A stretch of DNA of 64,000 nucleotides from NCBI RefSeq assembly GCF_000428725.1, contig NZ_AUAM01000020.1, positions 1 through 64,000 of the forward strand, in the 5' to 3' direction. The stretch comes from Psychromonas aquimarina ATCC BAA-1526. Its GTDB lineage: Bacteria; Pseudomonadota; Gammaproteobacteria; Enterobacterales; Psychromonadaceae. Under the pieces are notes generated by a model, which was not told the DNA's origin, made no database searches, and saw nothing but the letters and a program-made list of their open reading frames with translations. Each line of letters starts with the position of its first letter. Position 1 is the stretch's first letter. The translations under genes and the position numbers were made by a program. Positions 23,275-41,287 of this stretch are shown here, one piece after another.

Positions 23275-23506
23275 AGACGCATACTCAACGTAATTCTGCC
23301 CCGCTGCAGATCCACATCTACAACCCGTACCTTGAGCTCGCTTTTTAACTATGCTGAAGACGCATACTTAATGCAATTCTACCGCGCTGCAGATCCACAT
23401 CTACAACCCGTACCTTGAACTCGCTTTTTAACTATGCTGAAGACGCATACTTAATGCAATTCTACCGCGCTGCAGATCAACATCTACAACCCGTACCTTG
23501 ACAATC
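23275..23506. repeat. Three tandem copies of the tex 3' end (83-bp period)
   Basis: Copies begin at 23275, 23358 and 23441, each with AGACGCATACT(C/T)AA. About 60 bp of shared tail encodes the last 20 or so residues of Tex. Between copies is a 22-bp filler that ends in the current tex stop region. The copy farthest from tex (23275) ends ...RITLSMRLK with its own stop and adjoins trmK, so it looks like the original gene end. The copy nearest the gene body is part of the functional tex. Confidence 0.92.
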
Positions 23507-25611
23507 TGCCCTGTTTTAACAACCTGGAAGGGATCACTGACAAACTTATCCGCAAGCTGTGAAATATGCACTAAACCATCCTGATGCACACCGATATCAA
23601 CAAAAGCACCAAAACTGGTGACATTAGAGACAACCCCCTGCAGCACCATATCATTTATCAGCTCTGCCGGTTTATTAATACCTTCTGCAAAACTAACGGT
23701 TTTAAACTCTGGACGAGGATCGCGTCCAGGTTTAGCAAGCTCACTCAGAATATCTGTAATACTGAGCAGACCAAACTGTTCATTGACATACTGCTGTGCA
23801 TTAACATTGTTTAATAATAACGGATTATTGACCAGCTCTTTAACTTGTCTGCCCTGCTGCACTGCAATTTCTTTTACCAGCGCGTAAGCTTCCGGGTGCA
23901 CGGCAGAATTATCCAGAGGATTAACAGCTTCACTTATGCGTAAAAATCCCGCCGACTGCTGAAAAGCTTTATCGCCTAAGCGGGCAACTTTTTTGAGCAC
24001 ATTTCTTGATTTAAAAGCACCATAAGTATCCCGGTAATCTACAATGTTCTGTGCAATAGTTTTGTTTAACCCGGCAATAAAACTCAATAAAGACACTGAA
24101 GCACTATTCAAGTCAACACCCACTGCATTTACACAGTCTTCTACTACCGTCTGCAGACGTCTTGCCAGTTTAGTCTGATTAAGATCGTGCTGATATAAAC
24201 CAACACCAATTGCTTTAGCATCAATTTTTACCAGTTCCGCTAAGGGATCCTGCAGACGCCGGGCAATTGAAACTGCGCCTCGAATGGAAACATCAAGATC
24301 TGGAAATTCCTGTGATGCAAGTTCAGAAGCAGAATAAACAGATGCACCCGCTTCGCTAACTATTAAGCAGGGAATTGTTAAACCCTGCTCGTTAAGCAGC
24401 TCACGCACAAAACTATCTGATTCCCGCGATGCGGTACCATTACCGATGGCAATCAGATCGACTTTGTATTTGTTAATCAGTTTGATTATCTCATGCGCTG
24501 ACTGCTCTGTTTTAAAAGCAGGTGCATGCGGATAAATAGTTGCATAATCAAGCAGCTTGCCGGTTTCACTGATAACGGCAGCTTTACAGCCCGTACGCAG
24601 CCCCGGATCTAAGCCGAGTACGACTTTTCTGCCGGCAGGTGCAGCCATCAGCAGCTCTTTTAAATTGCCGGCAAAAATATCAATGGCACTGTCAAAGGAT
24701 TTTTCTTTCATGGATGAAATTAGCTGGGTTTCCAAAAGCGTCGATATTTTACTTTTCCAGGCCTTTTTCACTGCAGCTTTTCGCCAGCTGTCAGGTGTCA
24801 GATTAGCGAATGAAAAACCTAAATGACTGGCTATCAGCGTTTCACAGTAGGAGTCTTTAATACTCTTATCCTGCCTGGGATCGGCATTAAGCTTTAGTTT
24901 TAACAAACCTTCGCTTTTGCCGCGCAGCATGGCTAATAAACGGTGTGAAGATATTTTCTTTAAAGGCTCCTGAAATTCAAAATAATCTTTAAATTTTAAT
25001 GCATTCTGCTCTTGTCCTTTGACCACTGTAGAAACCAGGGCTGCATTATTGAACAAATGTTTGCGCAGCTTATCCAGCAGTGCAGCATCAGCAGCAATAC
25101 GCTCGACGATTATCAGCTGCGCTCCCGTTAATACACTTTTCGCATCAGGGAAACCTTTGCTGCTGTTTATATAGCGTTTAGCCAGACAATCTACATCCGT
25201 TTCGTTGTGAAACCATAACTTATCCGCAAGCGGTTCCAGTCCGGCGTCTATCGCTAACTGGCCTTTACTGATGCGTTTACTTTTAAAAGGCTGGTATAAA
25301 TCTTCAAGCGTAGTTTTATCGGGCGCTGCATTTATCTGCCCTTTTAATTTATCAGTTAAATTCCCCTGCTCACTGAGCGCTTTTAAAACTGCATTTCTGC
25401 GCATCTCTAATTCGCGCAGATAGGTCAGGCGAGTTTCTAATAAACGAAGCTGCACATCATCGAGCCCGTTGGTGGCCTCCTTGCGGTAACGCGCGATAAA
25501 CGGCACTGTATTGCCGTCATCATAAAGTGAAACAAAAGCGTTAACCTGGGCTGTTGTAACGGCGGATTCAGCGGCCAGCTGCGAAATAATTGACGATACA
25601 TTTGAATTCAT
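23428..25611 (-). CDS. tex: Transcription accessory protein Tex
   Basis: The 727-aa RNA-binding protein has helical N-terminal domains, a YqgF/RNase H-like domain (about 320-430; VVLGLDPGLRTGCKAAV and AIGNGTASRE), helix-hairpin-helix motifs (about 490-560; FIAGLNKTIAQNIVDYRD) and a C-terminal S1 domain (about 645-720; GVVSNVTSFGAFVDIGVHQDG). Tex acts on nascent RNA and RNA polymerase. The protein ends RGRIALSMRLQHS; the final three residues come from filler created by the tandem duplication of the tail, so its end differs from the ancestral ...MRLK form. Confidence 0.93.
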   Translation of the reverse strand: MNSNVSSIISQLAAESAVTTAQVNAFVSLYDDGNTVPFIARYRKEATNGLDDVQLRLLETRLTYLRELEMRRNAVLKALSEQGNLTDKLKGQINAAPDKTTLEDLYQPFKSKRISKGQLAIDAGLEPLADKLWFHNETDVDCLAKRYINSSKGFPDAKSVLTGAQLIIVERIAADAALLDKLRKHLFNNAALVSTVVKGQEQNALKFKDYFEFQEPLKKISSHRLLAMLRGKSEGLLKLKLNADPRQDKSIKDSYCETLIASHLGFSFANLTPDSWRKAAVKKAWKSKISTLLETQLISSMKEKSFDSAIDIFAGNLKELLMAAPAGRKVVLGLDPGLRTGCKAAVISETGKLLDYATIYPHAPAFKTEQSAHEIIKLINKYKVDLIAIGNGTASRESDSFVRELLNEQGLTIPCLIVSEAGASVYSASELASQEFPDLDVSIRGAVSIARRLQDPLAELVKIDAKAIGVGLYQHDLNQTKLARRLQTVVEDCVNAVGVDLNSASVSLLSFIAGLNKTIAQNIVDYRDTYGAFKSRNVLKKVARLGDKAFQQSAGFLRISEAVNPLDNSAVHPEAYALVKEIAVQQGRQVKELVNNPLLLNNVNAQQYVNEQFGLLSITDILSELAKPGRDPRPEFKTVSFAEGINKPAELINDMVLQGVVSNVTSFGAFVDIGVHQDGLVHISQLADKFVSDPFQVVKTGQIVKVRVVDVDLQRGRIALSMRLQHS

Positions 25612-25717
25612 AATTTTCTTTTAATTTTTATTTAGTTATGGGCATACTAATGATTTTAATCGAACTTGATGATTGTTAATATCACTTTCAAATATTTAAT
25701 AACCGGGATTATATAAA

Positions 25718-26704
25718 ATGATTAATTTTGCAGTTATCGGCACCAACTGGATCAGTGAAGAATTTGTCAATGCGGCCTTAGTTAATAAGCAGCTGCACCT
25801 TAACGCGGTATATTCCCGTCATATACAAACAGCTGAAAAATTTGCTCAAAAGTATAATGTTAAAAACTGTTTTGATGATATCAGTTTATTAAGCAGGAGC
25901 GATACAATACAGGCCGTTTATATCGGCAGTCCGAACTCGCTGCATTTTGAACAGGCATTAATGATGTTAAAACATGGCAAACATGTTATTTGTGAAAAGC
26001 CTTTAGCATCTAACGCAAAGCAGGTTGAAATTCTTTACCAGGCAGCTGTTGATAACAATGTGGTTTTATTTGAAGCCTATAAAACCGCATGTCTGCCCAA
26101 CTTTGCACAGATAAAAAATAATCTTTCTAAGCTTGGTAAACTGCGCAAAGCGCATATTCATTACTGCCAGTATTCCTCCCGCTACCAGAAGTATTTAGAC
26201 GGTGAAAATCCCAATACCTTTAACCCCGAATATTCTAACGGTTCGATTATGGATATTGGTTATTACTGTGTGGCATTCACCGTTGCCCTGTTTGGTAAAC
26301 CGTTAGAAATTCAGGCCGCAGCCACCCTGCTTGACTCAGGTGTTGACGGTGCAGGCGCTGTTCTGCTCAACTACGGAGAATTTACTGTCAGCATTGATCA
26401 CTCAAAAATAAGTGACTCGGTACTGCCCAGTGAAATACAAGGAGAGCAGGGTAATCTAGTTATCAAACATATTTCACTCTGTGATCAGGTCCATCTGCAT
26501 CAAAAAGAGCAGGTAACCGATCTGACTTTACCGCAGCCTGAAAACAGTATGGTTTACGAAGCGGACTTTTTTGCTGAGCAGATTCAGCGGGGCAGAATGG
26601 ATGAGCAGGCGGTTATACGCTCTAAAATAACTGCAGCTGTGATCACCGAAATCCGCGCTTTGACTAAAGTAAAATTTCCAGCAGATGAACTATGCTATAG
26701 CTGA
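25718..26704 (+). CDS. Gfo/Idh/MocA-family NAD(P)-dependent oxidoreductase
   Basis: The 328-aa protein has an N-terminal Rossmann fold (INFAVIGTNWISEEFVNAAL) and the family motif HVICEKPLASN near residue 92, followed by an alpha/beta substrate domain with IMDIGYYCVAF. Such enzymes oxidise sugars or polyols; the substrate is unknown. It is divergent from tex, is monocistronic, and is followed by a CCCGGC/GCCGGG hairpin. Confidence 0.88.
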   Translation: MINFAVIGTNWISEEFVNAALVNKQLHLNAVYSRHIQTAEKFAQKYNVKNCFDDISLLSRSDTIQAVYIGSPNSLHFEQALMMLKHGKHVICEKPLASNAKQVEILYQAAVDNNVVLFEAYKTACLPNFAQIKNNLSKLGKLRKAHIHYCQYSSRYQKYLDGENPNTFNPEYSNGSIMDIGYYCVAFTVALFGKPLEIQAAATLLDSGVDGAGAVLLNYGEFTVSIDHSKISDSVLPSEIQGEQGNLVIKHISLCDQVHLHQKEQVTDLTLPQPENSMVYEADFFAEQIQRGRMDEQAVIRSKITAAVITEIRALTKVKFPADELCYS

Positions 26705-26713
26705 TTGACATAG

Positions 26714-26740
26714 CCCGGCAGTTCAACGCCGGGTATATTT
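26714..26740 (+). terminator. Hairpin terminator after the oxidoreductase
   Basis: CCCGGC (26714-26719) pairs with GCCGGG (26728-26733) and is followed by TATATTT, 10 bp after the stop. The convergent HD-GYP gene ends 5 bp beyond. Confidence 0.7.
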
Positions 26741-26744
26741 ACGG

Positions 26745-27920
26745 CTAATGTTTTATATTCCATTTTACATAGGATTCTATGCTTAGAATTTTAATCTCAT
26801 CCTGCTCAGCTAAATTAATCAGCTTTCGCGGTACATAACAGCGCTTCTTAGTATTAACAAATACTTCCACCTGCGGCTTAAGCATATTGTCACTGATATC
26901 AATAACGGTAGCTAAATGCTGATTGCTCAATAAAACTAAACTGCCGGCAGGATAAATACCAACAGCCTGAATAAACTTACGCACTAAATCAGGATTAAAA
27001 TGCGTACCGCTCCATTTTAATAATAGTTTTAATACCTCAGAAGGCTCTTTACCCACGTGGTAACAACGATCCGCGGTCAGCGCATCATAAACATCCACAA
27101 TGGCGGCCATCTGTCCATAGGTGCTTATTTGATCGCCTTTTAATCCCAGCGGATAACCATTTCCGTCAAATTTCTCATGATGCTGGGCGGCGATATCCAT
27201 GGACACCTGCGACAGTCCCTTGGTTTTTTCTAATATCAGGCGGCTGTCAACAACATGCTTTTTCATAATAACAAATTCCTGGTCGGTTAATTTTCCAGGT
27301 TTATTTAAAATTTCATCCGGTGTTAACGTTTTGCCTATATCATGCAGCAGTCCGCCGATACCTACATTATTGATTGTTTCGATGGGCAGCCCCATACTTT
27401 TTGCAAAGGACATCAATAATACGGAAAAACTTACCGAATGTTCAAAAGTGTATTTATCCATAGCTCTAATACGAGAAAGTCCTAATAAAGCATTGGGGTT
27501 ACGTAAAATAGAGGCACTCATTTTATTGATAACCGGATTCACCTGCTCTAATTCTACATGCTGGCCCATTTTTGCATTAGCCATCATATCGGTGATAAAT
27601 TCACCCGCTTCTGCAAATGCAATTTTAGCCGGGCCTAATTCCTGCAGCACGCTGACTTTTCCAGGTTTATCCTGCGAACGCTGATCAATAACCTTTCGCA
27701 GCTGACCGTTTTCCGCTTTTCTTTTCTCGATAAATATATCTAATCCTTTTTTTATATCTATCTCGATCTCTTTAACACCGGCCGCAATAATTTTTCGAAT
27801 CTCAGTATCAGATTTAATCTTAAAGCGGTTAACCGCAAATGGATGATTCATCCAGCCGCACTGTAAATCATTAATATACATACCAATACGGAGCTGGGTT
27901 ACTTTAATCTTTTTTAACAT
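26745..27920 (-). CDS. HD-GYP phosphodiesterase with N-terminal DUF3391
   Basis: The 391-aa protein opens with the DUF3391 pattern (IKVTQLRIGMYINDLQ, ending in KEIEIDIKKG). Residues about 150-330 form the HD-GYP domain: YTFEHSVSFSVLLMSFAK, the HD pair in LLHDIGKTLTP, AAQHHEKFDGNGYP, and IVDVYDALTADRCYH. This arrangement is common in marine gammaproteobacterial cyclic-di-GMP phosphodiesterases. The C-terminal 80 residues form a small beta domain. It is the second HD-GYP gene in the window. Confidence 0.9.
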   Translation of the reverse strand: MLKKIKVTQLRIGMYINDLQCGWMNHPFAVNRFKIKSDTEIRKIIAAGVKEIEIDIKKGLDIFIEKRKAENGQLRKVIDQRSQDKPGKVSVLQELGPAKIAFAEAGEFITDMMANAKMGQHVELEQVNPVINKMSASILRNPNALLGLSRIRAMDKYTFEHSVSFSVLLMSFAKSMGLPIETINNVGIGGLLHDIGKTLTPDEILNKPGKLTDQEFVIMKKHVVDSRLILEKTKGLSQVSMDIAAQHHEKFDGNGYPLGLKGDQISTYGQMAAIVDVYDALTADRCYHVGKEPSEVLKLLLKWSGTHFNPDLVRKFIQAVGIYPAGSLVLLSNQHLATVIDISDNMLKPQVEVFVNTKKRCYVPRKLINLAEQDEIKILSIESYVKWNIKH

Positions 27921-27984
27921 AATTTTTTACTTAAGTTTTAGAGACCAGTTTGAAATGCCGGGCAAAGTTATTCAGCGAAAAATA

Positions 27985-28323
27985 CTAGCGCCCAAAATAC
28001 TGATTAATAATTTCTTCAAGGTTATCTTCTAATAACTCTTCGAAATGATCTAAGTTTTCACCGAATACATTCAAATACTGACCGGCTTTACTTCGTGTCA
28101 GCTTTTTAGAAGCAACTTGAAATTCCATTTCAGCTAAGCTTTTGTCGAACCTCGGTACAATTGACCAGTTGATATAAGGGCTGGCACAGGCCTGCAGCTG
28201 CATTTGTGCAAAATCGCAGAATTCATTAATGTATTGACTGCCGTCGGGCCCTAAGGATCCCGGCTCCATACGAAATATAACAAACATTTTTCTATTTTCT
28301 GGAATGCCGCTGGCAAACGTCAT
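27985..28323 (-). CDS. Conserved hypothetical protein
   Basis: The 112-aa soluble protein runs from MTFASGIPENRKMFVIF to LEDNLEEIINQYFGR, with one FRMEPGSLGPDGSQYI segment and a helical end. I do not recognise a family. AAGGAAA precedes the ATG at 28323 by 6 bp, so the longer upstream frame is rejected. It is upstream of the HD-GYP gene on the same strand (64 bp gap) and may be cotranscribed. Confidence 0.6.
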   Translation of the reverse strand: MTFASGIPENRKMFVIFRMEPGSLGPDGSQYINEFCDFAQMQLQACASPYINWSIVPRFDKSLAEMEFQVASKKLTRSKAGQYLNVFGENLDHFEELLEDNLEEIINQYFGR

Positions 28324-28648
28324 TTGCTTTTCCTTATGCTGATAGCCGTCTTCATGAGTGTCACACAGCATAATACAGCAGGACTTCACAAAGCGATAAA
28401 ATGATCTCAAAAACACATGCCGTTTCAAACTAATCTGTGTAAACGCATAAAAAACGTTCTATTACAGTTATCTGTGCTGAGCGTCAGTTGTTCTACTGAT
28501 TGAGTATATACCCAAACATATAAAGCAGCGGCATCCGCTGAAGCCTGCTTATACGGATTTAATATAAAAAACCAGCCATCATTATAATTGAAACCCAGCT
28601 TATAAATTATCAAATATTATTATGGTTATATTTCTTCTATTGTAACTG

Positions 28649-28667
28649 GGCGTTACAGACTAACGCC
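28649..28667 (+). promoter_or_regulatory. Hairpin in the focA leader
   Basis: GGCGTTA and TAACGCC enclose CAGAC, giving a 7-bp stem 27 bp upstream of the leader ORF start. There is no T-run, so it is more likely an mRNA structure or operator than a terminator. Confidence 0.4.
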
Positions 28668-28693
28668 GATATTTATTCATTAAGGAGAAGTTT

Positions 28694-28768
28694 ATGAAAA
28701 TTGCGCAGACCATTATTAAACAACTAAATAGAGGCGTGCACAGTCACGACGTTCATTATGAGCTCTAA
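28694..28768 (+). CDS. 24-residue leader ORF overlapping the focA start
   Basis: An ATG at 28694 has a strong AAGGAG 8 bp upstream and opens a 24-codon frame, MKIAQTIIKQLNRGVHSHDV and so on, ending in YEL-stop. Its last codons overlap the focA ATG at 28758, which itself lacks a ribosome site. The two are therefore probably translationally coupled. It may be a regulatory leader peptide; its sequence matches nothing I know. Confidence 0.5.
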   Translation: MKIAQTIIKQLNRGVHSHDVHYEL

Positions 28769-30257
28769 TCAGCATTACCCTGTCAGGCTGGTGAACAATG
28801 ACCAGCAGAAAACGCCGGCAGCAAACAGTGTCATTGCGCAGGTAGAAGAGTACGGTTTGAAAAAAGTACAGAAATCAGTGTCGAAGTCATTCGCCCTTGC
28901 TGTTTTTGCCGGTGCTTTTATTGCCATTGCCTTTGTTTTTTATATCACAGTAACAACCGGTGCAAATGATGCTCCCTGGGGACTAGTCAGACTTTCAGGA
29001 GGCCTTGCATTTAGTGTCGGACTGATATTAGTGGTCGTATGCGGCGGAGAACTGTTTACCAGTACAGTATTAAGTACCGTAGCCTGGGCACAGGGGCTGT
29101 TTTCAACCGGGCAGTTACTGAAATGCTGGCTGCGTGTTTATCTGGGCAACCTGGCGGGCGCGGCTTTAATGCTGGCCCTGATTGTAACTGCACAGATGCA
29201 TCTGCTTGACGGCGGCGCGTGGGGAATTAACGCCCTGCAGATTGCCCAGCATAAGCTCCATCACAGCTGGGCGCAGGCCTTTGCTCTAGGGATCCTATGT
29301 AACATTTTAGTGTGTTTAGGTATCTGGATGACATTCAGCTGTAAGGATGCTTTAGCAAAATCTATGCTGCTTGTGCTGCCTGTCGCGATGTTTGTCAGCA
29401 GCGGTTTTGAACACAGTATCGCCAACATGTTTATGGTACCGCTGGGCATTGCTGTTAATGCACTCAGTGAACCGCAGTTTTATATAAACCATGGGCTGGC
29501 GGCGGCTGATTTTGCGGACTTAACCTGGTCTAACTTTATCTTTCATAACCTAATTCCAGTAACCCTGGGCAACATAGTCGGCGGTGGTTTATTAATCGGA
29601 CTTGGCTACTGGTTAATCGATGGTGACAGTAAAAACAAGAATAAAGACAACAATCTACACAATAGTAATAACAATAATGTATTTGAAACAAACAATCAGT
29701 TAACTAAATTTGGAGAAACTCATATTATGAAAAACACATTAAACAGCCTTACAGTAAGTCAGATTATGGATAAAGAGCCTCTGGTATTTTTACAAAACAA
29801 ATGTATTTATCAGTCACTGGCTTTATTAACTGAGCATGAAATCGATGCAGCCCCTGTTATTGATGATAAGCAGCAGCTGATCGGCTTCATTTCACAACAG
29901 GATATTTTAAGACTTTTATGGTCTGAGGAGTACTCAACTGATTTAAACTATAAAATCGAAGATGCAATGCAGACAGAAATACTGACTGTCGACGCACAAC
30001 AGCCTGTAGCGACACTGCTTGAGTTTATGGTTGTAGATAAAGAAAGACTGTTCCCGGTTAATGACGGCGGCATGCTGACCAGCCGCAGTTACCAAAGTTA
30101 CGAACAGCGGCTTAAAAGTGCATCAGCACAGCGCCCTTCTATCTATCCAGTTATAAATAACGGTTTAATGTGCGGCGTTATAAGCCGACGTCAGATTGCG
30201 GCACTAGTTGTTAATCAATACCTGCCCGATGATAAAGTAGAAGCGCAGGTCGCTTAA
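28758..30257 (+). CDS. focA: FocA-type formate channel fused to CBS domains
   Basis: Residues 1-285 follow E. coli FocA with six membrane segments: FYITVTTGANDAPWG, VVCGGELFTSTVLS, YLGNLAGA, LGILCNILVCLGIWM, SSGFEHSIANMFMVPLG and FIFHNLIPVTLGNIVGGG, including the central His of the pore. An Asn-rich linker (about 290-318) joins a CBS pair (about 330-490; VSQIMDKEPLVF, LIGFISQQDILRLLW, MCGVISRRQI). FocA carries formate across the inner membrane; CBS pairs bind adenosine nucleotides, so transport may be energy-gated. An internal GGAG and ATG (29727) could also yield the CBS part alone. Fusion is uncommon in my experience. Confidence 0.85.
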   Translation: MSSNQHYPVRLVNNDQQKTPAANSVIAQVEEYGLKKVQKSVSKSFALAVFAGAFIAIAFVFYITVTTGANDAPWGLVRLSGGLAFSVGLILVVVCGGELFTSTVLSTVAWAQGLFSTGQLLKCWLRVYLGNLAGAALMLALIVTAQMHLLDGGAWGINALQIAQHKLHHSWAQAFALGILCNILVCLGIWMTFSCKDALAKSMLLVLPVAMFVSSGFEHSIANMFMVPLGIAVNALSEPQFYINHGLAAADFADLTWSNFIFHNLIPVTLGNIVGGGLLIGLGYWLIDGDSKNKNKDNNLHNSNNNNVFETNNQLTKFGETHIMKNTLNSLTVSQIMDKEPLVFLQNKCIYQSLALLTEHEIDAAPVIDDKQQLIGFISQQDILRLLWSEEYSTDLNYKIEDAMQTEILTVDAQQPVATLLEFMVVDKERLFPVNDGGMLTSRSYQSYEQRLKSASAQRPSIYPVINNGLMCGVISRRQIAALVVNQYLPDDKVEAQVA

Positions 30258-30273
30258 CTCTATTTCCCAAGGT

Positions 30274-30307
30274 ATGAATAAAACAAGCCGCGGCTTGTTT
30301 TATTCAT
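30274..30307. terminator. Perfect palindromic terminator after focA
   Basis: ATGAATAAAACAAGCCG (30274-30290) is mirrored exactly by CGGCTTGTTTTATTCAT (30291-30307). It is 16 bp after the focA stop, with T-rich flanks on either strand, so it may also terminate the convergent LysR gene. Confidence 0.85.
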
Positions 30308-30370
30308 TTTCAAATTAAGTAAATCAACACTCAAAAGCCGGACACGATATTTTCCTTCCTCAGCCCACAT

Positions 30371-31270
30371 CTAAAGTTTTAAACTAGAAATTAAACGCTT
30401 CGCCTCTGCGATTATGCAGTCACGCAGCGGGTTTTCACCGGCATCGGTACGCCAGGCAAATGATAAATTTCGTTTCATATTCAGATCCGGTGTTTCTAAT
30501 ATAACCAGCTCACCGTTTGCAACTTCTTTAGCGACGTCCAGTTTGGGTAAACACCCCAGGTAAAAACCATTTTTAACCAGCTCTTTGATAATCGGAATAC
30601 TGTCATACATTTTCCATACATCAATATTTTCGATTAAACCATGCACCGCACCATCGAATATGTGACGGGTTCCAGCCCCCATTTCCCGTAAAATCCATTT
30701 TGCCTGTTCTAATTGTGCCAGACTGACCTTCGGATATTTGGCATAAGGATGATGTGCGCTGGTAAATATAACCAAATTATCTTCTGTCAAATCATGCTGA
30801 AATATTCGGCTATCATCATTGCGTCCTTCTATCAGACCTAGATCATATTCATGATTAATTAACCCCTGCACAACATGTTCAGTATTTTCAATACTAACTT
30901 CTATACGCAGTTCAGGGAAATCAGTATCAATTTTACTGATTAACTGCGGCAGTATATGCTCGGCAATTGTCTGGCTGGAGCAGAGCACTAAATTACCACT
31001 GATAATCTGCTGATCATGCAGCCCGAACTCAATCTGCTGCGCATCCTGAAGTAAACGTTTCGCTTTAGGACGAAGCCAGCGTCCCCAGTGACTTAAGGTT
31101 AAACGATTCCCCTGGCGGATGAATAACGGCCGGTCTAAAACACTCTCAAACTGCGAAAGAGACATACTCACAGCAGACTGGGTCATTGATAATTTTCGTG
31201 CGGCTGCGCTGACACTTTCCTGACTAGCCACAGCATCAAAAACAGCTAATTGTTTGAGCGAATATTTCAT
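30371..31270 (-). CDS. LysR-family transcriptional regulator
   Basis: The 299-aa regulator has an N-terminal winged helix-turn-helix (SVSAAARKLSMTQSAVSMSLSQ..LDRPLFIR) and the two-lobe effector-binding domain (about 90-295; GNLVLCSSQTIAEHILPQL and YDLGLIEGR). It resembles YeiE-type regulators but the target is not clear. It is convergent with focA and not divergent from a metabolic gene, so its regulon cannot be inferred by position. Confidence 0.88.
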   Translation of the reverse strand: MKYSLKQLAVFDAVASQESVSAAARKLSMTQSAVSMSLSQFESVLDRPLFIRQGNRLTLSHWGRWLRPKAKRLLQDAQQIEFGLHDQQIISGNLVLCSSQTIAEHILPQLISKIDTDFPELRIEVSIENTEHVVQGLINHEYDLGLIEGRNDDSRIFQHDLTEDNLVIFTSAHHPYAKYPKVSLAQLEQAKWILREMGAGTRHIFDGAVHGLIENIDVWKMYDSIPIIKELVKNGFYLGCLPKLDVAKEVANGELVILETPDLNMKRNLSFAWRTDAGENPLRDCIIAEAKRLISSLKL

Positions 31271-31430
31271 TTTTCATTCCTAAATAACAAATCATACCCC
31301 AACAGGTATCAATTTTTCTGATACTGAATTATGACGTGATTTTATAATGATTTTTTAAATAAAACAAAACAATCGGAATGATTTATTAATCTGCGGTGAG
31401 TTAGTTCTGCGTCTACATGGTCAAATTATC

Positions 31431-31598
31431 TTTAATAAGCGAAGAGTCCCGATAAACATCACTGATTTGTGTACTGCGGTTAACTAGCTGTGGTGTATTC
31501 AGATCTGCATCTGGAAGGTTGAATTCTCTTTAATAAGCGAAGAGTCCCGGTAAGCATCACTGATTTGCGTACTGCGGTTAACTAACTGTGGTGTATTA
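31431..31598. repeat. Two tandem copies of the 3' end of the SprA-like gene (98-bp period)
   Basis: A 70-bp segment at 31431-31500 is repeated at 31529-31598 with about five differences; both start TTTAATAAGCGAAGAGTCCC. A 28-bp unrelated filler lies between. The outer copy encodes TPQLVNRSTQISDVYRDSS and ends LIKDNLTM-stop, probably the ancestral end. The inner copy belongs to the current gene, whose stop lies in the filler region. Confidence 0.9.
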
Positions 31599-32362
31599 GT
31601 TTCTTCTGCAAGATGCTGCTCACCGGTAAAATGTTCAGGTACATGTGATTCATAGCGCGCGGCTGAATTTGTACTACTTTCATCTCCGCGCAGTTCCTGC
31701 TGAATATCACTGCGGGCATCGGACGCCATCTGGCCTGCCTTGGCGGCAACACGACGATCCTGACTGGAAGGTTCAGCGGGTGCTAATGCGGCGGCTTTTA
31801 TCTGCTGGGCTTTGCGCAGAGTTGCCTGAGGATCATTGGGAACTCTTGATGTATCAATGGATACCTCTCCGGACACCGCATATTTGACACCGTCAGGCCC
31901 GGTTTGATAATCATAATGGGGAGTGCCGGCATACTGTCCGCCGACCGAAGCATGTGCTCTTTCATGGGCAATTACTTCCGCATCAAGTACCTGCAGACTG
32001 CTGATCTGCTTCAACTCTGCTTCACTATACTGCTCATTTTCCTGGTTCTGTTCGGGCTCACCTGCGTTTTTATCAGTGCCTTGTACAGCCTGCGGATCGT
32101 CTTCAGACTGCTTTTCTTGTGCATCCGCGACCTGCCCGCCCTGTGCTGGATTTTCCTGTTCAGGGACAAGGCTGACTGGTCTTTGATAGGTTGGGTTCTC
32201 GCTGATATTATCAGCACTGTTAATTCCAGGCGAGACAGAAATATCAACTTGAGGCGCGCTGACCTGTACTGCAGGCGAGGCTGAAACCTCAACCGAAGGT
32301 CTGCTCTGCACTGGTGAAAATGCGGCAGTATGCACTGCTGGTGAAGAGGTTGAAATATTCAT
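31499..32362 (-). CDS. SprA-related putative metalloprotease-like protein
   Basis: This 287-aa protein has a Val/Ser/Gln-rich disordered first half. A SprA-related domain (about 120-225) follows: DAEVIAHERAHASVGGQYAG, HYDYQTGPDGVKYAVSGEV and PNDPQATLRKAQQI. AHERAH resembles a short zinc-protease site but lacks the full HExxH, so catalysis is uncertain. No signal peptide is visible. The tail is altered by tandem duplication. It lies 14 bp after a 90-aa gene on the same strand. Confidence 0.78.
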   Translation of the reverse strand: MNISTSSPAVHTAAFSPVQSRPSVEVSASPAVQVSAPQVDISVSPGINSADNISENPTYQRPVSLVPEQENPAQGGQVADAQEKQSEDDPQAVQGTDKNAGEPEQNQENEQYSEAELKQISSLQVLDAEVIAHERAHASVGGQYAGTPHYDYQTGPDGVKYAVSGEVSIDTSRVPNDPQATLRKAQQIKAAALAPAEPSSQDRRVAAKAGQMASDARSDIQQELRGDESSTNSAARYESHVPEHFTGEQHLAEETNTPQLVNRSTQISDAYRDSSLIKENSTFQMQI

Positions 32363-33186: not shown

Positions 33187-33214
33187 CATAATTATATAAT
33201 ATTGTTCAGAATTA

Positions 33215-34714: not shown

Positions 34715-34857
34715 ATTATTCTCTCTCTGTTTAAGTTGATAACAATAACAGCAGCTAGAGAGTTTAAATTAGAGACGCTTAGTTAAAACTATTCACTAAT
34801 ATCGATGTTATTAATATTACTGAACAGCTATAACAAAACGACTGATAATTTGTAAAA

Positions 34858-34955
34858 CCGTCCAAATCCGTCTGTCATAACTAGCACTCTACCGGATAGA
34901 TAAACAGATACACGGCATATATAGTTAAGCGGTCATATTCAGATTTAAACGGTCA
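34858..34955. promoter_or_regulatory. CGGTC/CCGTC direct repeats, candidate LytTR-regulator sites
   Basis: CGGTCA occurs at 34930-34935 and 34950-34955, 20 bp apart (two helical turns). CCGTC also occurs at 34858-34862 and 34868-34872. LytTR regulators bind direct repeats with such spacing upstream of their target, and the next gene downstream on the minus strand is the CstA-type transporter. The match is by spacing, not by a verified consensus. Confidence 0.45.
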
Positions 34956-34994
34956 ACAGCATTTTTAAGTGGTTTTGCAGAATCGGCCGAAAAG

Positions 34995-35723
34995 TTAACT
35001 TAATGAAAAGCGGTCTTTTAAAGCTTTTAGGTAACGGCGGCTGACCGGCGCTGTTGAACCATTACAGGTAATGATTTCAGCCAGTGAATTTTCTAATAAT
35101 TTGATTTCACGGATTGCGGTGGGATTAATTAAATACTGGCGGTGGCAGCGGATCAGGCAGGTTTTTTCCTCCAGCACTTTTAAACTAAGGGAGCAGCCCG
35201 CTGTCTGTTCAGTGCTGGACTGCATATTAGTGATAACATGAACGCCGGACTGATCTGAAAATGCCATTTCAATCTCATCGGGTTTGACTAATATAAAACG
35301 GTTATAACCGGCACAGGGAATTAACTCTAACTGCTCCTGCAGCAGACCACTGTAATCTCGTTTTGCGATACTCGATTTTAAGCGCTTCACAGTTTTACTT
35401 AAACGGCCGGGTTCAACCGGTTTCAATATATAATCAAAAGCATTATCTTCAAATGCCTGTAAAGCATATTCATCATAGGCTGTAACAAAAACAACGTGCG
35501 GCATAGTCTCCGGATCCAGCATGCTGAGCATCTCTAAACCGGTTATCTGCGGCATCTGAATATCCAGAAATATGACATCGGGTTTTAAACTGTTTACCTT
35601 CTGCAGCCCTTCAACTGCATTACTGCAGGAAGCAATAATCTCAACTTCAGCTGTTTCTTTTAATAATTCGATTAACTCTTCTCTGGCATACAGTTCATCA
35701 TCTATCACAATCGCTTTAAGCAT
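34995..35723 (-). CDS. LytTR-family response regulator (BtsR-like)
   Basis: The 242-aa protein has a receiver (1-120; acidic DDE, phosphoacceptor Asp54 in VIFLDIQMPQITG, and KPVEPGRL) and a C-terminal LytTR DNA-binding domain (about 140-240; EKTCLIRCHRQYLINP and RRYLKALK). Its frame overlaps the kinase gene by 8 nt. With the kinase it resembles the BtsSR/YpdAB group, which induces a pyruvate transporter. Confidence 0.85.
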   Translation of the reverse strand: MLKAIVIDDELYAREELIELLKETAEVEIIASCSNAVEGLQKVNSLKPDVIFLDIQMPQITGLEMLSMLDPETMPHVVFVTAYDEYALQAFEDNAFDYILKPVEPGRLSKTVKRLKSSIAKRDYSGLLQEQLELIPCAGYNRFILVKPDEIEMAFSDQSGVHVITNMQSSTEQTAGCSLSLKVLEEKTCLIRCHRQYLINPTAIREIKLLENSLAEIITCNGSTAPVSRRYLKALKDRFSLS

Positions 35724-37425
35724 TTTTTTTGTTAACTCCTTTTATTTCCAGCAGTGGAAAAGTAATCTGCGCTGTACAGGAAACTCCTTTTTCGCAGGAC
35801 ATCTGCAGCCCGTATGACTGCCCGAAAGCATTTTTTAAACGTTTATCAACAATCTGCAGGCCTAAACCTGTTTCATTTTCTTTTACAGTATAGTTACCGG
35901 CATTATCGATAACCAGCAGTTCCACCAGGGGCTGAGCACTGTTTCTAACAATAGAGCCTTTCACCTGAATTCTGCCGTTTTCTAATAAGGTTGATGTGCC
36001 GTGTTTAACTGCATTTTCAACCAGCGGCTGCAGAGTAAAGGTGGGGACAACAACGTTATGCAGCTCGGGATCCACCTGAAATTCAACTTCTAAGCGGTCA
36101 GAAAAACGTGCCAGCTCAACTTCAAGGTATGCAGTGATATGCGCCAGCTCTTCTTCAATCGTCACGGATTCAATATTATGCTTTAAATTTCTGCGGAAAA
36201 ATTGTGAAAGATGCTGAATCAGCTGTCGTGCTTTATCCGGATCGCGCCTGATCACGGCACTGATTGTGTTAAGGGAATTAAATAAAAAATGCGGGTTTAC
36301 CTGAGCCTGCAGAAGACGCAGCTCTGCTTGTGTCAGTAATGTCTGCTGCTCAATATAGCGGCCGGTTAAAATCTGATTGGACAGCAGCTTTGCCAGCCCT
36401 TCTCCTAAATGACGGTTAAGCGTTGAGAACAGCTTCTGTTTCGGCTCATAAAGCTTAATAGTGCCTAATACTTCATCTTCCCCGCCGACTAGCGGTATAA
36501 CCAGCGCAGAGCCTAATTTACATTTCTCATGCAGTGAACACTGGTAGGCAACTTCGTAACCGTCAGCGTAAATTAATTCACGATTTTGAATCGCCTGTCT
36601 GGTGCACTCAGATGAGATAGGCGTTCCAGGCAGATGATGGTCGTCACCGATACCAATAAACGCCATAATTTTTTCTCTGTCGGTAATGGAAACCGCCCCC
36701 ACTCCCGTTTCTTCATAAATTATCTGCGCTATTTTTTTAGTGCTCTGCTGATTGAAACCGCTGCTTAAAATGCCGACGGAACGTTCGGCAATTTTTAATG
36801 CTTTGCTGGAAAAGGCTGCAGAGTACTTTTCATAAATCGCCTTTCGATCCTGGATAATACTCATAAATAAAGCAGCACCTATGCTGTTGGCGATAATCAT
36901 AGGTAAAGCGATTGCTTTAACCAGGTGCAGCGCCTGCTCAAAGGGCTGCGCAACCAGCAGTATAATCGTCATCTGCATCACTTCTGCAGCCAGAAGAACC
37001 ACAAAAGCAACACTCGGTTTAAATATTTTGTCCACCAGCCCGCGCCGGACATAATAACTGTGGATTAAGCCGCCTAATAACCCTTCGGCAGTGGTTGATA
37101 TTGCGCAGGCTGTATCAGTAAAACCTCCCATGGTATAACGATGGATGCCGCCGGTCAGCCCGACGGCAAAACCAACCACAGGCCCTCCAAGCAGACCGCC
37201 CATTACCGCACCGATTGCCCGTGTATTAGCGATGGCATTCTCAATAGCTAAACCAAAATAAGTACCCAGCACACAAAACAGGCTAAACACCACATAACAG
37301 GCTAAACGCTGCGAAAAATGACCGGAAACTGTGGTTAAGGGCATAAATAAAGGCGTTTTACTTAATAAATACGCAATCACTAAATACACACTAAGCTGCT
37401 GCAGTAGTGAAAAGATTAATTCCAT
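35716..37425 (-). CDS. LytS-type sensor histidine kinase (BtsS-like)
   Basis: The 569-aa protein has about six N-terminal membrane segments of the 5TMR_LYT sensor (GAVMGGLLGGPVVGFAVGL), a GAF-like region (about 220-350) and the PF06580 kinase core: His in QVNPHFLFNSLNTISAVIRR, then an ATPase domain with LVENAVKHG and ETGLGLQIVDKRL. It probably senses external pyruvate. The partner regulator starts within its last codons. Confidence 0.85.
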   Translation of the reverse strand: MELIFSLLQQLSVYLVIAYLLSKTPLFMPLTTVSGHFSQRLACYVVFSLFCVLGTYFGLAIENAIANTRAIGAVMGGLLGGPVVGFAVGLTGGIHRYTMGGFTDTACAISTTAEGLLGGLIHSYYVRRGLVDKIFKPSVAFVVLLAAEVMQMTIILLVAQPFEQALHLVKAIALPMIIANSIGAALFMSIIQDRKAIYEKYSAAFSSKALKIAERSVGILSSGFNQQSTKKIAQIIYEETGVGAVSITDREKIMAFIGIGDDHHLPGTPISSECTRQAIQNRELIYADGYEVAYQCSLHEKCKLGSALVIPLVGGEDEVLGTIKLYEPKQKLFSTLNRHLGEGLAKLLSNQILTGRYIEQQTLLTQAELRLLQAQVNPHFLFNSLNTISAVIRRDPDKARQLIQHLSQFFRRNLKHNIESVTIEEELAHITAYLEVELARFSDRLEVEFQVDPELHNVVVPTFTLQPLVENAVKHGTSTLLENGRIQVKGSIVRNSAQPLVELLVIDNAGNYTVKENETGLGLQIVDKRLKNAFGQSYGLQMSCEKGVSCTAQITFPLLEIKGVNKKNA

Positions 37426-37610
37426 ATAAGGTACCGGTTAAAGGAGAGTTGAAGGCAAATTAATAAACCTGCTCTAGCGAAGCGAAAAAGACAATATCAA
37501 CATAGAGAGTGAGTTTTTATGAATACTGGTAAAATAACACAGCGCTGAGCTGTTGTGTCTGTAGTAAAGTATTTTCGTGATCTGCTTTTAATAAATCAGC
37601 ATTACCTTGT

Positions 37611-37859
37611 TTACTGATAAGACAGTTTACGTTTTTTTAATTTTTTCAGGGCACACTTGCATAATCCCGAGTTTAAAGCCGGACAGTTTTTACAAGGTGT
37701 TGATTTAATGGGGCGTGAAGCAAATTCTGTGCTGCAGATAACAGACTGCACAGCTTTTGATTGAACTGCGGTCTTGAATTCCGTAGATGTGACCAGATAC
37801 AGAGACGATTTTTTCTGCTCTTTTTTACTGCTGTATTTAATTTTTTTCTTTGCTGACAT
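37611..37859 (-). CDS. Small Lys/Cys-rich protein under a Fur-type promoter
   Basis: This 82-aa basic protein starts MSAKKKIKYSSKKEQ and has a Cys cluster, CKNCPALNSGLCKCALKKL (CxxC then CxC), plus one upstream Cys. The cluster could bind zinc, iron or an iron-sulfur centre; I do not recognise the family. I start at the ATG at 37859, 5 bp after GGCGGG; the longer frame overlaps the Fur box. It lies divergently from rhlE. Confidence 0.6.
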   Translation of the reverse strand: MSAKKKIKYSSKKEQKKSSLYLVTSTEFKTAVQSKAVQSVICSTEFASRPIKSTPCKNCPALNSGLCKCALKKLKKRKLSYQ

Positions 37860-37868
37860 ACGCCCGCC

Positions 37869-37887
37869 AATAATGATTATCATTCAG
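37869..37887. promoter_or_regulatory. Fur box
   Basis: The core AATGATTATCATT is palindromic and the 19-mer centred at 37878 matches the consensus GATAATGATAATCATTATC at about 14 positions. It covers the expected start point of the promoter next to it. Confidence 0.7.
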
Positions 37888-37891
37888 ATAA

Positions 37892-37920
37892 AGTATAATA
37901 AATAAACGTTTAAACAGCAA
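37892..37920 (-). promoter_or_regulatory. Sigma70-type promoter of the Cys-rich gene
   Basis: On the minus strand TTGCTG (37920-37915) and TATACT (37897-37892) are spaced by 17 bp. The predicted start would fall inside the Fur box, which fits iron repression. Confidence 0.6.
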
Positions 37921-38019
37921 CTTGATAACAGCATGCATTTTATTAATGCCCAATAAGCCAGAGCTGTTATACTCGCGCCAATAATTGAATTTTGTATGTG
38001 TAATAGAGTGGTGATGTAA

Positions 38020-39321
38020 ATGAGTGTTGATGCAATAGGTTTATCTTCTGAGTTATTAAAAGCTGTAAAAGCTTGTGGTTATAAAAATCTGACTCCTATA
38101 CAGCAGCAGGCGATCCCACTTATCCGTACGGGTACCGATCTGCTGGCAAGCGCACAGACAGGCACAGGTAAAACAGCCGCTTTTACGCTGCCGATCTTAG
38201 ATATATTAGCAAAAAACAGCAGTGCCAAGCCGGCTAACAATACAACGATTAAAGCGCTGATATTAACCCCGACTCGTGAACTTGCCCTGCAGGTCGCTAA
38301 AAACATTAAAGACTACAGCGAATTTTTACCCCTGACCAGCGGCGTAGTCAGCGGCGGTACAAATATGCCGGCACAGACTAAAATGCTGAAAAACGGTGTA
38401 GATCTGTTAGTTGCAACTCCAGGCCGTCTTATTGAACATCTGACACTAAGAAACGTGGATCTTTCCCATGTGAAATACCTGGTATTAGATGAAGCCGACC
38501 GCATGCTGGATATGGGTTTTCTTCAGGACATTGAAAGGTTAATGGAAGTTATCAAACAGAAACATCAGACACTGATGTTCTCCGCTACTTTCTCTAACAA
38601 AGTGAAAACCCTGGCTAACAAGCTGCTGACTACACCAAAAACTCTAGAGATCTCACCACAAAACTCTACATCGGGTAAAGTGAAGCAGCAGGTCTACTGG
38701 GTATCCGAACAGCGTAAACGTGAACTGCTGTCGGAGCTGATCGGGGTGAAAAACTGGAAACAGGTCCTGGTCTTTGCCGGTACTAAAGAGAGCGCTAATC
38801 TGCTGGCTAAAGAACTGCAGTTAGATGGAATTAAAACCGCTTTATGTCATGGTGATAAAGCTCAGGGCGCACGTAACAAAGCAATTGAAAAATTTGTCGA
38901 TGGCAGCGTAAGAGTATTAGTGGCAACCGACGTAGCGGCCCGCGGGTTAGATATTCCGGATCTGCCCTATGTGGTAAATTTCCATCTGCCGTTTCTAGCC
39001 GAAGATTATGTCCACCGTATTGGGCGTACCGGTCGAGCAGGAAAAAATGGTATGGCGGTTTCATTAGTCAGCCCGAAAGATGAGCAGTTCTTAGATAATA
39101 TCGAAGAGCTGATTGGACGAAAGTTTGAACGTATTGTTTACCCGGGTTACGAATTCGATGCGCAGTCATCTTCGCAGTATAATGATTCAGAGACAAAACC
39201 ACTTAAGAAAAGCCGCTATAAAGCAACTCAGGAGCGCAATCAGATGCTCGCCCGCAGAAAAGAAGCTAATAGCCCGGCAGCAATTCGCCGTGCTAAAGCA
39301 AAGAAAAGAAAAGCCAGATAA
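38020..39321 (+). CDS. rhlE: DEAD-box RNA helicase RhlE
   Basis: The 433-aa helicase has all core motifs: Q motif (YKNLTPIQQQAIP), Walker A ASAQTGTGKTAAF, PTRELALQ, TPGRL, DEAD in VLDEADRMLDMGF, SAT in MFSATF, and HRIGRTGRAG. The order and the short basic C-terminal tail (KAKKRKAR) fit RhlE, which acts in ribosome assembly and RNA turnover and helps growth in the cold. It is monocistronic. Confidence 0.9.
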   Translation: MSVDAIGLSSELLKAVKACGYKNLTPIQQQAIPLIRTGTDLLASAQTGTGKTAAFTLPILDILAKNSSAKPANNTTIKALILTPTRELALQVAKNIKDYSEFLPLTSGVVSGGTNMPAQTKMLKNGVDLLVATPGRLIEHLTLRNVDLSHVKYLVLDEADRMLDMGFLQDIERLMEVIKQKHQTLMFSATFSNKVKTLANKLLTTPKTLEISPQNSTSGKVKQQVYWVSEQRKRELLSELIGVKNWKQVLVFAGTKESANLLAKELQLDGIKTALCHGDKAQGARNKAIEKFVDGSVRVLVATDVAARGLDIPDLPYVVNFHLPFLAEDYVHRIGRTGRAGKNGMAVSLVSPKDEQFLDNIEELIGRKFERIVYPGYEFDAQSSSQYNDSETKPLKKSRYKATQERNQMLARRKEANSPAAIRRAKAKKRKAR

Positions 39322-39327
39322 CACAGT

Positions 39328-39357
39328 AAAACCGGGGGATTTTTTCCCCGGTTTTAT
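39328..39357 (+). terminator. rhlE terminator
   Basis: AAAACCGGGG (39328-39337) pairs with CCCCGGTTTT (39346-39355), 6 bp after the rhlE stop, with Ts in the downstream arm. Confidence 0.88.
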
Positions 39358-39376
39358 TCAGACCGCGGTAAAAACC

Positions 39377-39955
39377 TCAGCCTTCAATAACAAATGTAGA
39401 AAAGCGATACAGTTTCAGATCCTCACTCCAGTAATTTCTATGCCAGCCCCCTTTCTGTTTTAATGCCTGCACGAAAGTAATAGGAGTTGGTAAAGAATGC
39501 CATACAGTCGGCAGAAATATCGCGCTTCGCCCCCCTTCCTCTTTTAATAACAGTCCGTCACTCCCAACTTTCAGCTCTTTTAATAAAGCCTGCTCACCAC
39601 TGTTTTTGAGCGGTTCCAGTTCCGATAGAACAGAAATTTCAAAAGATAAATACGGCAGTTCATTGCTCTGCACAGGCACAAAGCGCCGATCCTGACAGGC
39701 ACTGTAATAACTGTACTCACAAACATTAAGCCACAGCGGCTTTTCGACACCGTATGTACCGATGCAGCCCCGCAGCTGCTTATTGATATACAAGGTCACA
39801 AAACAGGCTCGACGTGTCAGAAGAGCAGCCGATACAGGCGGTTCGGGAAGCACCAGAGTATGTTCTCTGGTGGTAGTCTCAAGAACCTGTTTTACCAGAT
39901 TTACTAATTCGTTTTGTTCTGCTGTAGTAAAATTAATAGAGAATGAAACTGGCAT
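39377..39955 (-). CDS. AmmeMemoRadiSam system protein A (AMMECR1-like)
   Basis: The 192-aa AMMECR1-fold protein has RRACFVTLYINKQLRGCIGT and LSFEISVLSELEPL. Its function is unknown; it occurs with MEMO-like and radical-SAM partners. The start (MPVSFSIN) and its GGTGGG ribosome site lie inside the outermost copy of the duplicated 3' end of the next gene upstream, so the two genes probably overlapped before duplication. No radical-SAM partner is in the window. Confidence 0.85.
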   Translation of the reverse strand: MPVSFSINFTTAEQNELVNLVKQVLETTTREHTLVLPEPPVSAALLTRRACFVTLYINKQLRGCIGTYGVEKPLWLNVCEYSYYSACQDRRFVPVQSNELPYLSFEISVLSELEPLKNSGEQALLKELKVGSDGLLLKEEGGRSAIFLPTVWHSLPTPITFVQALKQKGGWHRNYWSEDLKLYRFSTFVIEG

Positions 39956-40130
39956 ATCCCACCACCTGCTGTTTGTTTCCTAAAGTGCCACCTGAACTTA
40001 TTCTTTACCGGCTTAAATTAATAGAGAATGAAACCGGCATAACCCGCATCTGCTGCTTATAAATCAATAGAGGATAAAACTGGCATATCCCACCACCTGC
40101 TGTTTATTTCCTAAAGTATCACCTGAATTA
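39930..40130. repeat. Three tandem copies of the AmmeMemoRadiSam B 3' end
   Basis: Copies start at 39930, 40015 (truncated, about 44 bp) and 40061. They share AAATTAATAGAGAATGAAAC-like sequence and the CCACCACCTGCTG block; fillers of about 14 and 2 nt lie between. Each copy contains an ATG that opens MPV-like peptides, but only the outermost copy continues into protein A. The innermost copy encodes the real end of protein B, VVGYASFILY. Confidence 0.9.
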
Positions 40131-40843
40131 GCCTGAGCAGTTAATTTAATTTTCCAGCCCTGTTTAGCTGCATAATCTAATAAACCATTAACAGCATAAC
40201 AGCCGCAGGCATCCTGCCCATGCAGATTTGCTTCATAATTTAAAATTTTATCTATGCTTTGACTGTCTAAAATCTGTGCCTGCTGGTAACTGTGATAATG
40301 ACTGAGATCCGTACTGACAATCACCACAGTAGACGGATCATCTGCCTGTAAAACGCTTAACAGCTCACTGACCAGCTGCGGCTGACACTGACCGACAACA
40401 ATCGGTACTATGGTAAAATCCTGCAGACAGGTCTGTAAAAACGGGAGCTGTACCTCCAGAGAGTGTTCAAAGAGATGTGCCGAATCACAAAAGCTTACCA
40501 AAGCAGATTTCAACAGTTTCTTGTAGCAGTCGCTGGCGACATCTATTTTACCCAGCGGCGTGCTGAACACATCATAATTTGAAACTGCACAGCCCTGTAA
40601 GGGAACCCGGTGACTGGGGCCCAGTACTATAACGCGTTTAATCTCAGCTGCGGCATTAAGGTAAGCATAGGCTTCTCCAGCAACCGCCCCCGAATAACAG
40701 TAACCGGCGTGCGGCACAATAAGCGCATGCGGGTTAATGTTCGGCTCCGGTGACACAGAAATAAATGTATGCAGCTCTGTTTTTAACTGTTCAGGTGCAG
40801 CCGGATAAAAGCTCCCAGCTACAACCGGCCCTCTGTATTTCAT
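40064..40843 (-). CDS. AmmeMemoRadiSam system protein B (MEMO-like)
   Basis: This 259-aa MEMO1-family protein has IVPHAGYCYSGAVAGEAY, VIVLGPSHRVPLQGCAVS, SLEVQLPFLQTCL and VSTDLSHYH, the conserved His/Asp set of the family. MEMO proteins resemble non-haem-iron dioxygenases, but their bacterial role is unknown. Its 3' end is tandemly repeated and leads into protein A. Confidence 0.88.
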   Translation of the reverse strand: MKYRGPVVAGSFYPAAPEQLKTELHTFISVSPEPNINPHALIVPHAGYCYSGAVAGEAYAYLNAAAEIKRVIVLGPSHRVPLQGCAVSNYDVFSTPLGKIDVASDCYKKLLKSALVSFCDSAHLFEHSLEVQLPFLQTCLQDFTIVPIVVGQCQPQLVSELLSVLQADDPSTVVIVSTDLSHYHSYQQAQILDSQSIDKILNYEANLHGQDACGCYAVNGLLDYAAKQGWKIKLTAQANSGDTLGNKQQVVGYASFILY

Positions 40844-41005
40844 ATAAACCTCACAGCAGACAACATGTTAACTAAACATCTCAGATAAAAATAATATATG
40901 CAGTGACTGTATTAAAAGTATAGTCAAATGGTGTACGAAATGAACATGGGCAGGCAAACAAATAAATATATTTATAGTTCTGACAGGAGCTCAGCAGGCG
41001 GCAAA

Positions 41006-41032
41006 CGCGATAACAGCAGAGCTATTATCGCG
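41006..41032 (-). terminator. Terminator-like hairpin beyond the YggL tail repeats
   Basis: CGCGATAA (41006-41013) pairs with TTATCGCG (41025-41032), then TTT on the minus strand. It follows the outermost tail copy by 15 bp, which suggests that copy is the original gene end. Confidence 0.6.
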
Positions 41033-41047
41033 CGTCATACAGGAGGC

Positions 41048-41287
41048 TTAAATACCGTAATAGACACCTGATAAATCATCGACTTTGGCATCAACAATAA
41101 ATGTGCTGTTTAATCAGCTCTCGTTAGAAGTTGTTTTAAATCCCGTAATAGGCGTCTGATAAATCATCGACTTTGGCATCAACAATAACTGTGCTGTTTA
41201 ATCAGCTCTCGTTAGAAGTTGTTTTAAATCCCGTAATAGGCATCTGATAAATCATCGACTTTGGCGTCAACAATAAATGTGTTGTTT
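41048..41287. repeat. Three tandem copies of the YggL-like gene's 3' end (88-bp period)
   Basis: Copies start at 41048, 41136 and 41224, each encoding TFIVDAKVDDLS(D/G)xYYGI-like tails with a stop. About 64 bp is shared by all; the first two junctions carry a 24-bp filler (AATCAGCTCTCGTTAGAAG and more). This fills most of the gap 40844-41223, whose remainder shows no other feature apart from the hairpin listed at 41006. Confidence 0.92.

Follow-up and report, generated by a model that had tools for sequence, protein, structure and literature searches.

Gene-tail arrays in the window

The stretch analyzed here, referred to as the window, is the first 64 kb (64,000 nucleotides) of contig NZ_AUAM01000020.1 in the 5.53-Mb, 141-contig draft genome of Psychromonas aquimarina ATCC BAA-1526 (G000). 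Within 18 kb of this window, the 3′ ends of four genes, tex, a SprA-related gene, a Memo-like gene, and yggL, are each followed by one or two further tandem copies of the coding tail. An initial annotation, made from the sequence alone, had placed tail copies at these four genes, and alignment and self-BLAST recovered all of them there. The genes and arrays are as follows.

23428..25611, minus strand: tex gene, 727 aa (Pfam Tex_N, Tex_YqgF, HHH, and S1); the first array derives from its 3′ end
23274..23501, minus strand: tex array, with copies at 23440-23501 (in gene), 23357-23439 (middle), and 23274-23356 (outermost); period 83, 2.7 copies
22566..23249, minus strand: gene after tex, close behind the outermost tex copy
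31499..32362, minus strand: SprA-related gene, 287 aa (Pfam SprA-related)
31403..31597, minus strand: SprA-related array, two units of 97-98 nt next to each other; period 98
40064..40843, minus strand: Memo-like gene, 259 aa (Pfam Memo)
39918..40127, minus strand: Memo array, three copies, at 40049-40127 (in gene), 40015-40045 (short middle copy), and 39918-39996 (outermost)
39377..39955, minus strand: AMMECR1-family gene, 192 aa (Pfam AMMECR1), starting inside the outermost Memo-tail copy
41224..41567, minus strand: yggL region (Pfam YggL_50S_bp, assigned on the Psychromonas ossibalaenae protein), frame disrupted in the window
41048..41287, minus strand: yggL array, with copies at 41224-41287 (in gene), 41136-41223 (middle), and 41048-41135 (outermost); period 88, 2.7 copies

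Comparison of the 64 kb with itself by BLAST (E<1e-3) detected only four short-range direct repeats, each crossing the 3′ end of a gene, and no further direct repeats at this threshold besides the four arrays. The unit at tex, for example, consists of ~61 nt of coding tail plus ~22 nt, which together make up the period of 83. The outermost copy lies beside the next gene at tex and Memo and beside an inverted repeat, seen by eye, at yggL, as the initial annotation had described; several relatives have a similar gene start shortly after the tex stop. Two other details of that description held in part. The stop differs between the gene copy and the outermost copy at tex, SprA, and Memo, but not at yggL. 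The fillers between copies, given as short and mostly 14-28 nt, are nearly lacking in the SprA-related array (2 nt) and range from 2 to 153 nt over 24 aligned cases. The yggL frame at 41224-41567 is disrupted compared to an intact 114-aa protein in P. ossibalaenae, which may be real or a sequencing error.

Tail repeats exceed start and mid-gene repeats in this lineage

The excess of tail repeats was examined in ~20% of the genome, consisting of the window and 57 further stretches (1.118 Mb; 1.054 Mb without the window). The places of the 57 stretches were fixed before their sequence was seen, and two of them adjoin the window. Counts were also obtained from P. ossibalaenae (G016), the nearest relative of the window genome among the genomes searched, and from a Psychromonas genome of 4,559,598 bases in one contig (G006). 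The window and three G016 stretches had been picked for their arrays or synteny, and the counts were redone without them. The test, run on tails, starts, and mid-gene positions, compared the last 120 nt of a gene with the next 250 nt at a score of at least 40. Genes were called by a longest-open-reading-frame heuristic, and those shorter than ~330 nt were left out, yggL among them in the count of 797 tails below.

Tails gave more matches than either starts or mid-gene positions, which is the excess that the initial annotation had proposed to look for. Of the two outcomes that it named as refuting its idea, a lack of such an excess and copies that prove to be artefacts, neither was seen in this ~20% of the genome. 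With the window included, G000 showed matches at 13/797 tails compared to 1/770 starts and 3/807 mid-gene positions, where random pairing would give 0.2, 0, and 0, respectively; the only start match is the Memo/AMMECR1 junction. Outside the window, the counts were 10/746 tails and 0/719 starts (P=0.002). P. ossibalaenae gave 6/340 tails, 2/328 starts, and 1/341 mid-gene positions (3/292 tails and 1/281 starts without the three chosen stretches), and G006 gave 2/143, 0/137, and 0/144. When G000 and G016 were combined without chosen stretches, 13/1038 tails matched compared to 1/1000 starts (P=0.002), and the difference from the tails of diverse genomes was also significant (P=0.003). With all three genomes pooled, the counts were 21/1280 tails and 3/1235 starts (P=0.0003).

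Elsewhere such matches were rare. Other Psychromonas genomes gave 0/157 (G023), 0/52 (G010), 0/74 (G011), and 1/133 (G020, G019, and G003 pooled) tails. Two genomes from other families of the order gave 0/153 tails (G028) and 1/167 tails, 1/158 starts, and 1/167 mid-gene positions (G032). The 77 diverse tex loci that served as controls gave 2/1084 tails, 1/1038 starts, and 1/1096 mid-gene positions, with 1.2 expected.

A wider test, which covered 140 nt within the gene and 60 nt beyond it and left out genes shorter than ~270 nt, gave a weaker contrast in G000, G016, and G006, with 25/1336 tails compared to 10/1285 starts (P=0.017). Part of the weakening arises because the wider test also picks up an array from the gene that comes after it; judged by position, this applies to four of the six start matches in G000, which are tail arrays. 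The corresponding controls were 2/1128 tails and 0/1080 starts for the 77 diverse loci, 0/40 and 1/39 for 50 kb of Escherichia coli, and 0/166 and 2/160 for G023.

Classification of repeats by BLAST pointed in the same direction. Among the 17 repeats of G000, window included, that are not interior to a gene, 14 include a stop codon, a further one is 18 nt away from a stop, and the remaining two touch starts. The stop-crossing share was 6/8 in G016 and 4/7 in G006, compared to 5/20 in the genomes outside these three repeat-rich Psychromonas (P=0.0008 against the 14/17 of G000, and 0.005 without the window). Taken together, these counts show a higher gain or retention of such arrays in the lineage of G000 and P. 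ossibalaenae than in the remaining sampled genomes. Roughly 50 arrays would be present in the whole genome, scaled from 10 per 1.054 Mb, and ~1.3-1.6% of genes in the clade are affected. The remark in the initial annotation that chance duplication rarely produces this pattern therefore fits the control genomes and does not fit this clade. With the frequency seen outside the window, four arrays in a single specified stretch of 18 kb have a Poisson P of ~3e-5, a value to be read with the fact that the window was picked for this cluster. The host genes, assigned to protein families with Pfam, are unrelated to each other, and there was no clear preference in neighbor orientation (8 codirectional and 5 convergent of 13, compared to 517 and 306 for all genes).

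Composition of the repeat unit

Periods range from 44 to 245 bp by alignment, with 15 of the 24 cases at 75-131. This span rules out a fixed unit length.

The 19 fillers of at least 12 nt were compared, by a shuffle test, with the flank past the outermost copy found, with the gene just before the tail, and with the tail itself. Seven of them resemble the sequence past the outermost copy (L262, L266a, both genes of L060, L218, L212, and L171), with the match at L218 being weaker since a decayed further copy follows. Only two (L266b and L176) resemble the gene just before the tail, and the idea that fillers are copied from gene sequence preceding the tail was rejected. One, at the Memo gene of P. 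ossibalaenae, resembles the tail itself. In several arrays (tex, yggL, L256, L160, and L218), the filler sequence recurs within the array, and at L260 a longer stretch that includes part of a copy resembles a decayed tail. At the S4-domain gene, P. ossibalaenae aligns over 57 nt past the stop, which correspond to the filler, and then skips both extra copies. Since the filler directly follows the single stop of the sister species, it represents the native 3′ flank, and the unit is tail plus flank. Such a flank origin is demonstrated at part of the loci and assumed at the others.

When 15 fillers were searched in the G000 (1.118 Mb) and G016 (0.46 Mb) samples, no filler sequence was common to several loci, and none had a match above 19 nt, the same arrays aside; the G006 filler was compared with G000 and G016 only.

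A separate observation concerns L160:15260-15542, where about six nearly identical 44-nt units follow a family 4 glycosyl hydrolase gene. This is perhaps the youngest array sampled.

Sharing with relatives and turnover

Ten of the 14 G000 arrays were looked for in P. ossibalaenae, and nine could be resolved. Of these, seven are common to both genomes. The tex (4 copies), SprA, Memo, and GGDEF gene arrays were read in the letters of the P. ossibalaenae sequence, and those at the MiaA-type gene, CysZ/EI24, and ClC were recognized from near-full-length alignments without letters. The yggL and S4-gene arrays are absent from P. ossibalaenae. At the SNF-transporter array, the contigs of P. ossibalaenae end (G016:C30:1-186 and G016:C9:1-77), and draft assemblies may therefore undercount arrays.

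Among more distant Psychromonas, absence was seen for the S4-gene array in both genomes that resolve it (G006 and G010) and for the ClC and MiaA-gene arrays in the two that resolve them (G010 and G014 in each case). At the MiaA-type gene of G006, the alignment continues 85 nt past the stop and a long gap is kept; a copy may be present there. A copy of the tex tail was found in 0/10 other Psychromonas with a locatable tex end, in a survey from which 13 of 30 loci of all genera, including those of the window and of G016, had dropped out without a tex end.

Some trends in turnover were apparent. First, copy number differs between the two species, with three compared to four copies at tex, three compared to one at yggL, and three compared to apparently one at the S4 gene in G000 and P. 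ossibalaenae, respectively. Second, nine sites over four loci are diagnostic of the genome compared to four that are diagnostic of the position of the copy (3:1 at tex, 4:2 at SprA, 1:1 at Memo, and 1:0 at GGDEF). Judged from these aligned bases, concerted evolution has occurred at tex, SprA, and GGDEF, with no such lean at Memo. Third, copies close to the gene are better preserved. In the GGDEF array of P. ossibalaenae, the three inner copies carry the genome's own bases and the outermost is decayed, and at L262 one near-identical outer copy is followed by two progressively decayed ones (by eye). Both patterns are expected from repeated exchange near the gene combined with outward decay.

Proposed origin and alternatives

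The account that we consider probable is that a unit of coding tail plus 3′ flank is duplicated in tandem by slippage or unequal exchange, is tolerated at the end of the gene, is refreshed near the gene, and decays outward. Of the three causes suggested in the initial annotation, tandem duplication of this kind fits best. An array would begin as an ordinary short tandem duplication whose unit runs from the coding tail into the 3′ flank, as is seen where the filler can be traced, with strand slippage or unequal sister exchange as the probable birth event. Such a duplication may be tolerated because the gene body remains attached to a copy with a C terminus and a stop. In contrast, a duplication within a gene would break it, and at a start it would create an additional ribosome start and interfere with the promoter. 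Later exchange among copies would lead to gain and loss of units and would keep copies alike within a genome, in line with the diagnostic sites at tex, SprA, and GGDEF but not at Memo. Flanks and many outer copies are seen to decay. The arrays have the appearance of harmless repeats that renew themselves, and not of a mobile element.

Several observations weigh against this account. First, 9 of the 19 fillers match neither the flank, the gene before the tail, nor the tail. Second, the in-gene and outer copies differ by 88 synonymous and 86 other changes, where random change would give 43 synonymous (P of 4e-13, or 0.005 if only the gene copy were constrained, for which ~40% is a rough expectation; both values are optimistic because copies and species are not independent). 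Constraint within the gene combined with homogenization would explain this excess, as would outer copies that are themselves constrained or an origin of the copies from different alleles. Third, the tail parts are better kept than the flanks, an example being L171 with 97% identity in the tail and 47/62 in the flank, which again requires homogenization or constraint. Finally, local repeats in other genomes show no 3′ bias (5/20 compared to 14/17), and therefore tolerance alone fails to explain the bias. Two candidate causes were tried and rejected. The single-strand exonuclease families ExoI, RecJ, and XseA are present in 9/9 genomes, and Ku was found in 0/24 Psychromonas genomes, so that neither loss of exonucleases nor Ku-type nonhomologous end joining accounts for the bias.

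The contrast with other genomes leads to a different explanation, which we regard as tentative and rather unlikely, namely, that a lineage-specific mutational process is aimed at gene 3′ ends, for instance, through breaks or replication-fork problems at transcription termination sites and subsequent repair that produces tandem duplications. It would account directly for a bias specific to these genomes, for the 0/719 starts compared to 10/746 tails outside the window, and for the progressively decayed outer copies at L262, which suggest repeated events at one gene. Duplication in this lineage might then occur preferentially where transcription or translation ends, with tails copied outward in a conveyor-belt-like manner, an idea that we also hold to be unlikely. 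On the other hand, no enzyme or signal for such a process was identified, and no common filler was found in the samples searched.

The synonymous changes bear on two further explanations, both of which appear improbable. A related allele may have been imported and its distal end attached through illegitimate recombination, so that the outer copy would be the original tail of the recipient. The many synonymous tail changes (88/174) and the strongly different flanks are indeed what would be seen between orthologues, but concerted evolution accounts for much of the same pattern, and the S4-gene filler is the same as the flank native to the sister species. Alternatively, selection may maintain the extra copies because they insulate genes from each other, act as spare terminators, or offer alternative C termini. 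Persistence of 7/9 resolved arrays beyond the species split and the synonymous excess would agree with selection, as would a terminator-like hairpin in one unit (L266a, by eye) and the Memo array, which supplies the start region of the following gene. However, outer copies often contain stops and indels, and they share neither a function nor a neighbor orientation. Selection on C-terminal tails, as put forward in the initial annotation, is not needed since the extra copies lie past the stop and many are decayed.

A small mobile element inserting at gene ends, the remaining cause in that annotation, would fit the recurrence of a similar architecture at unrelated genes but is very improbable and largely refuted for the samples searched, where no filler had a match longer than 19 nt elsewhere and where no sequence was found at several places as a miniature inverted-repeat transposable element would be. 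Assembly artefacts, which a 141-contig draft and the contig ends at the SNF-transporter array might suggest, can practically be dismissed because 7/9 resolved arrays are shared with P. ossibalaenae, whose assembly has the same junctions at the four loci read, because the copies differ from each other, and because the single-contig genome G006 has cases of its own. As a whole, the interpretation in the initial annotation is partly supported.

Relation to known repeat systems

The nearest described kind of repeat is the bacterial minisatellite, or variable-number tandem repeat (VNTR). As in VNTRs, the units lie head to tail at one locus within a size range of ~10-100+ bp and are homogenized within a genome (nine compared to four sites over the four loci, with Memo at one compared to one). 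Illegitimate recombination in bacterial genomes also yields close direct repeats, that is, tandem or near copies that decay; we know of no published 3′-end bias for these. The mycobacterial interspersed repetitive units (MIRUs) are one dispersed sequence family, whereas each Psychromonas locus has its own unit, and units shared between loci in the manner of MIRUs were not found for the 15 fillers in the G000 and G016 samples. What the arrays have in common with MIRUs is that tandem units of 40-100 bp are scattered over the genome (PMC2734929).

The same paper describes the rnc-fpg array (ETR-F/VNTR3239) of the Mycobacterium tuberculosis complex, whose structure varies between strains and whose length is reported to affect expression, and gives only 1-54 bp at this site in species outside the complex (PMC2734929). 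The likeness lies in lineage-limited tandem units of tens of base pairs just past a stop. The Psychromonas units differ from it, as it is presented there, in taking in the coding tail and stop and in recurring at ~1.3-1.6% of genes. Intergenic VNTRs of Wolbachia resemble the arrays in their slippage and proposed concerted evolution between periods (PMC3287509); they are two intergenic typing loci, and the available part of that paper describes no gene-tail source or genome-wide 3′ bias. Finally, Portiera without dnaQ shows a lineage-specific rise in repeats and longer intergenic regions (PMC7821994), in contrast to the present 5.5-Mb genome, where ExoI, RecJ, and XseA are present, a comparison made on these exonucleases only.

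Stop-spanning tail arrays in bacteria did not appear in the titles and abstract openings of the literature searched, a search that left most subscription papers outside, and the main text of the Psychromonas ingrahamii genome paper, in a term search, has no word beginning with "tandem" (PMC2405808). The new part is the recurrence at ~1.3-1.6% of genes with a unit anchored in the coding tail. It reveals a clade whose short tandem duplications accumulate where genes end, are turned over through concerted evolution, and outlast a species split. The clade offers a natural test of mutation versus selection in deciding where small duplications survive, and the arrays supply new 3′ untranslated sequence and add to the growth of intergenic regions. 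They also call for caution in gene-end annotation and short-read assembly.

Additional repeats

Three further kinds of repeat were observed. At L170:3800-4150 of G006, short degenerate GGC/CCTTCCAGC-type repeats loosely resemble, by eye, the insertion in the L176 copy. In P. ossibalaenae, a repeat of period 110 at L050:124-290 lies away from called gene ends. Lastly, a small Met/Gln-rich protein with a signal-like start contains in-frame repeats in both genomes (L158:12928-13320 and L217:4276-4659), with periods of 132 and 87 nt, which possibly reflect the same duplication process acting inside a tolerant gene.

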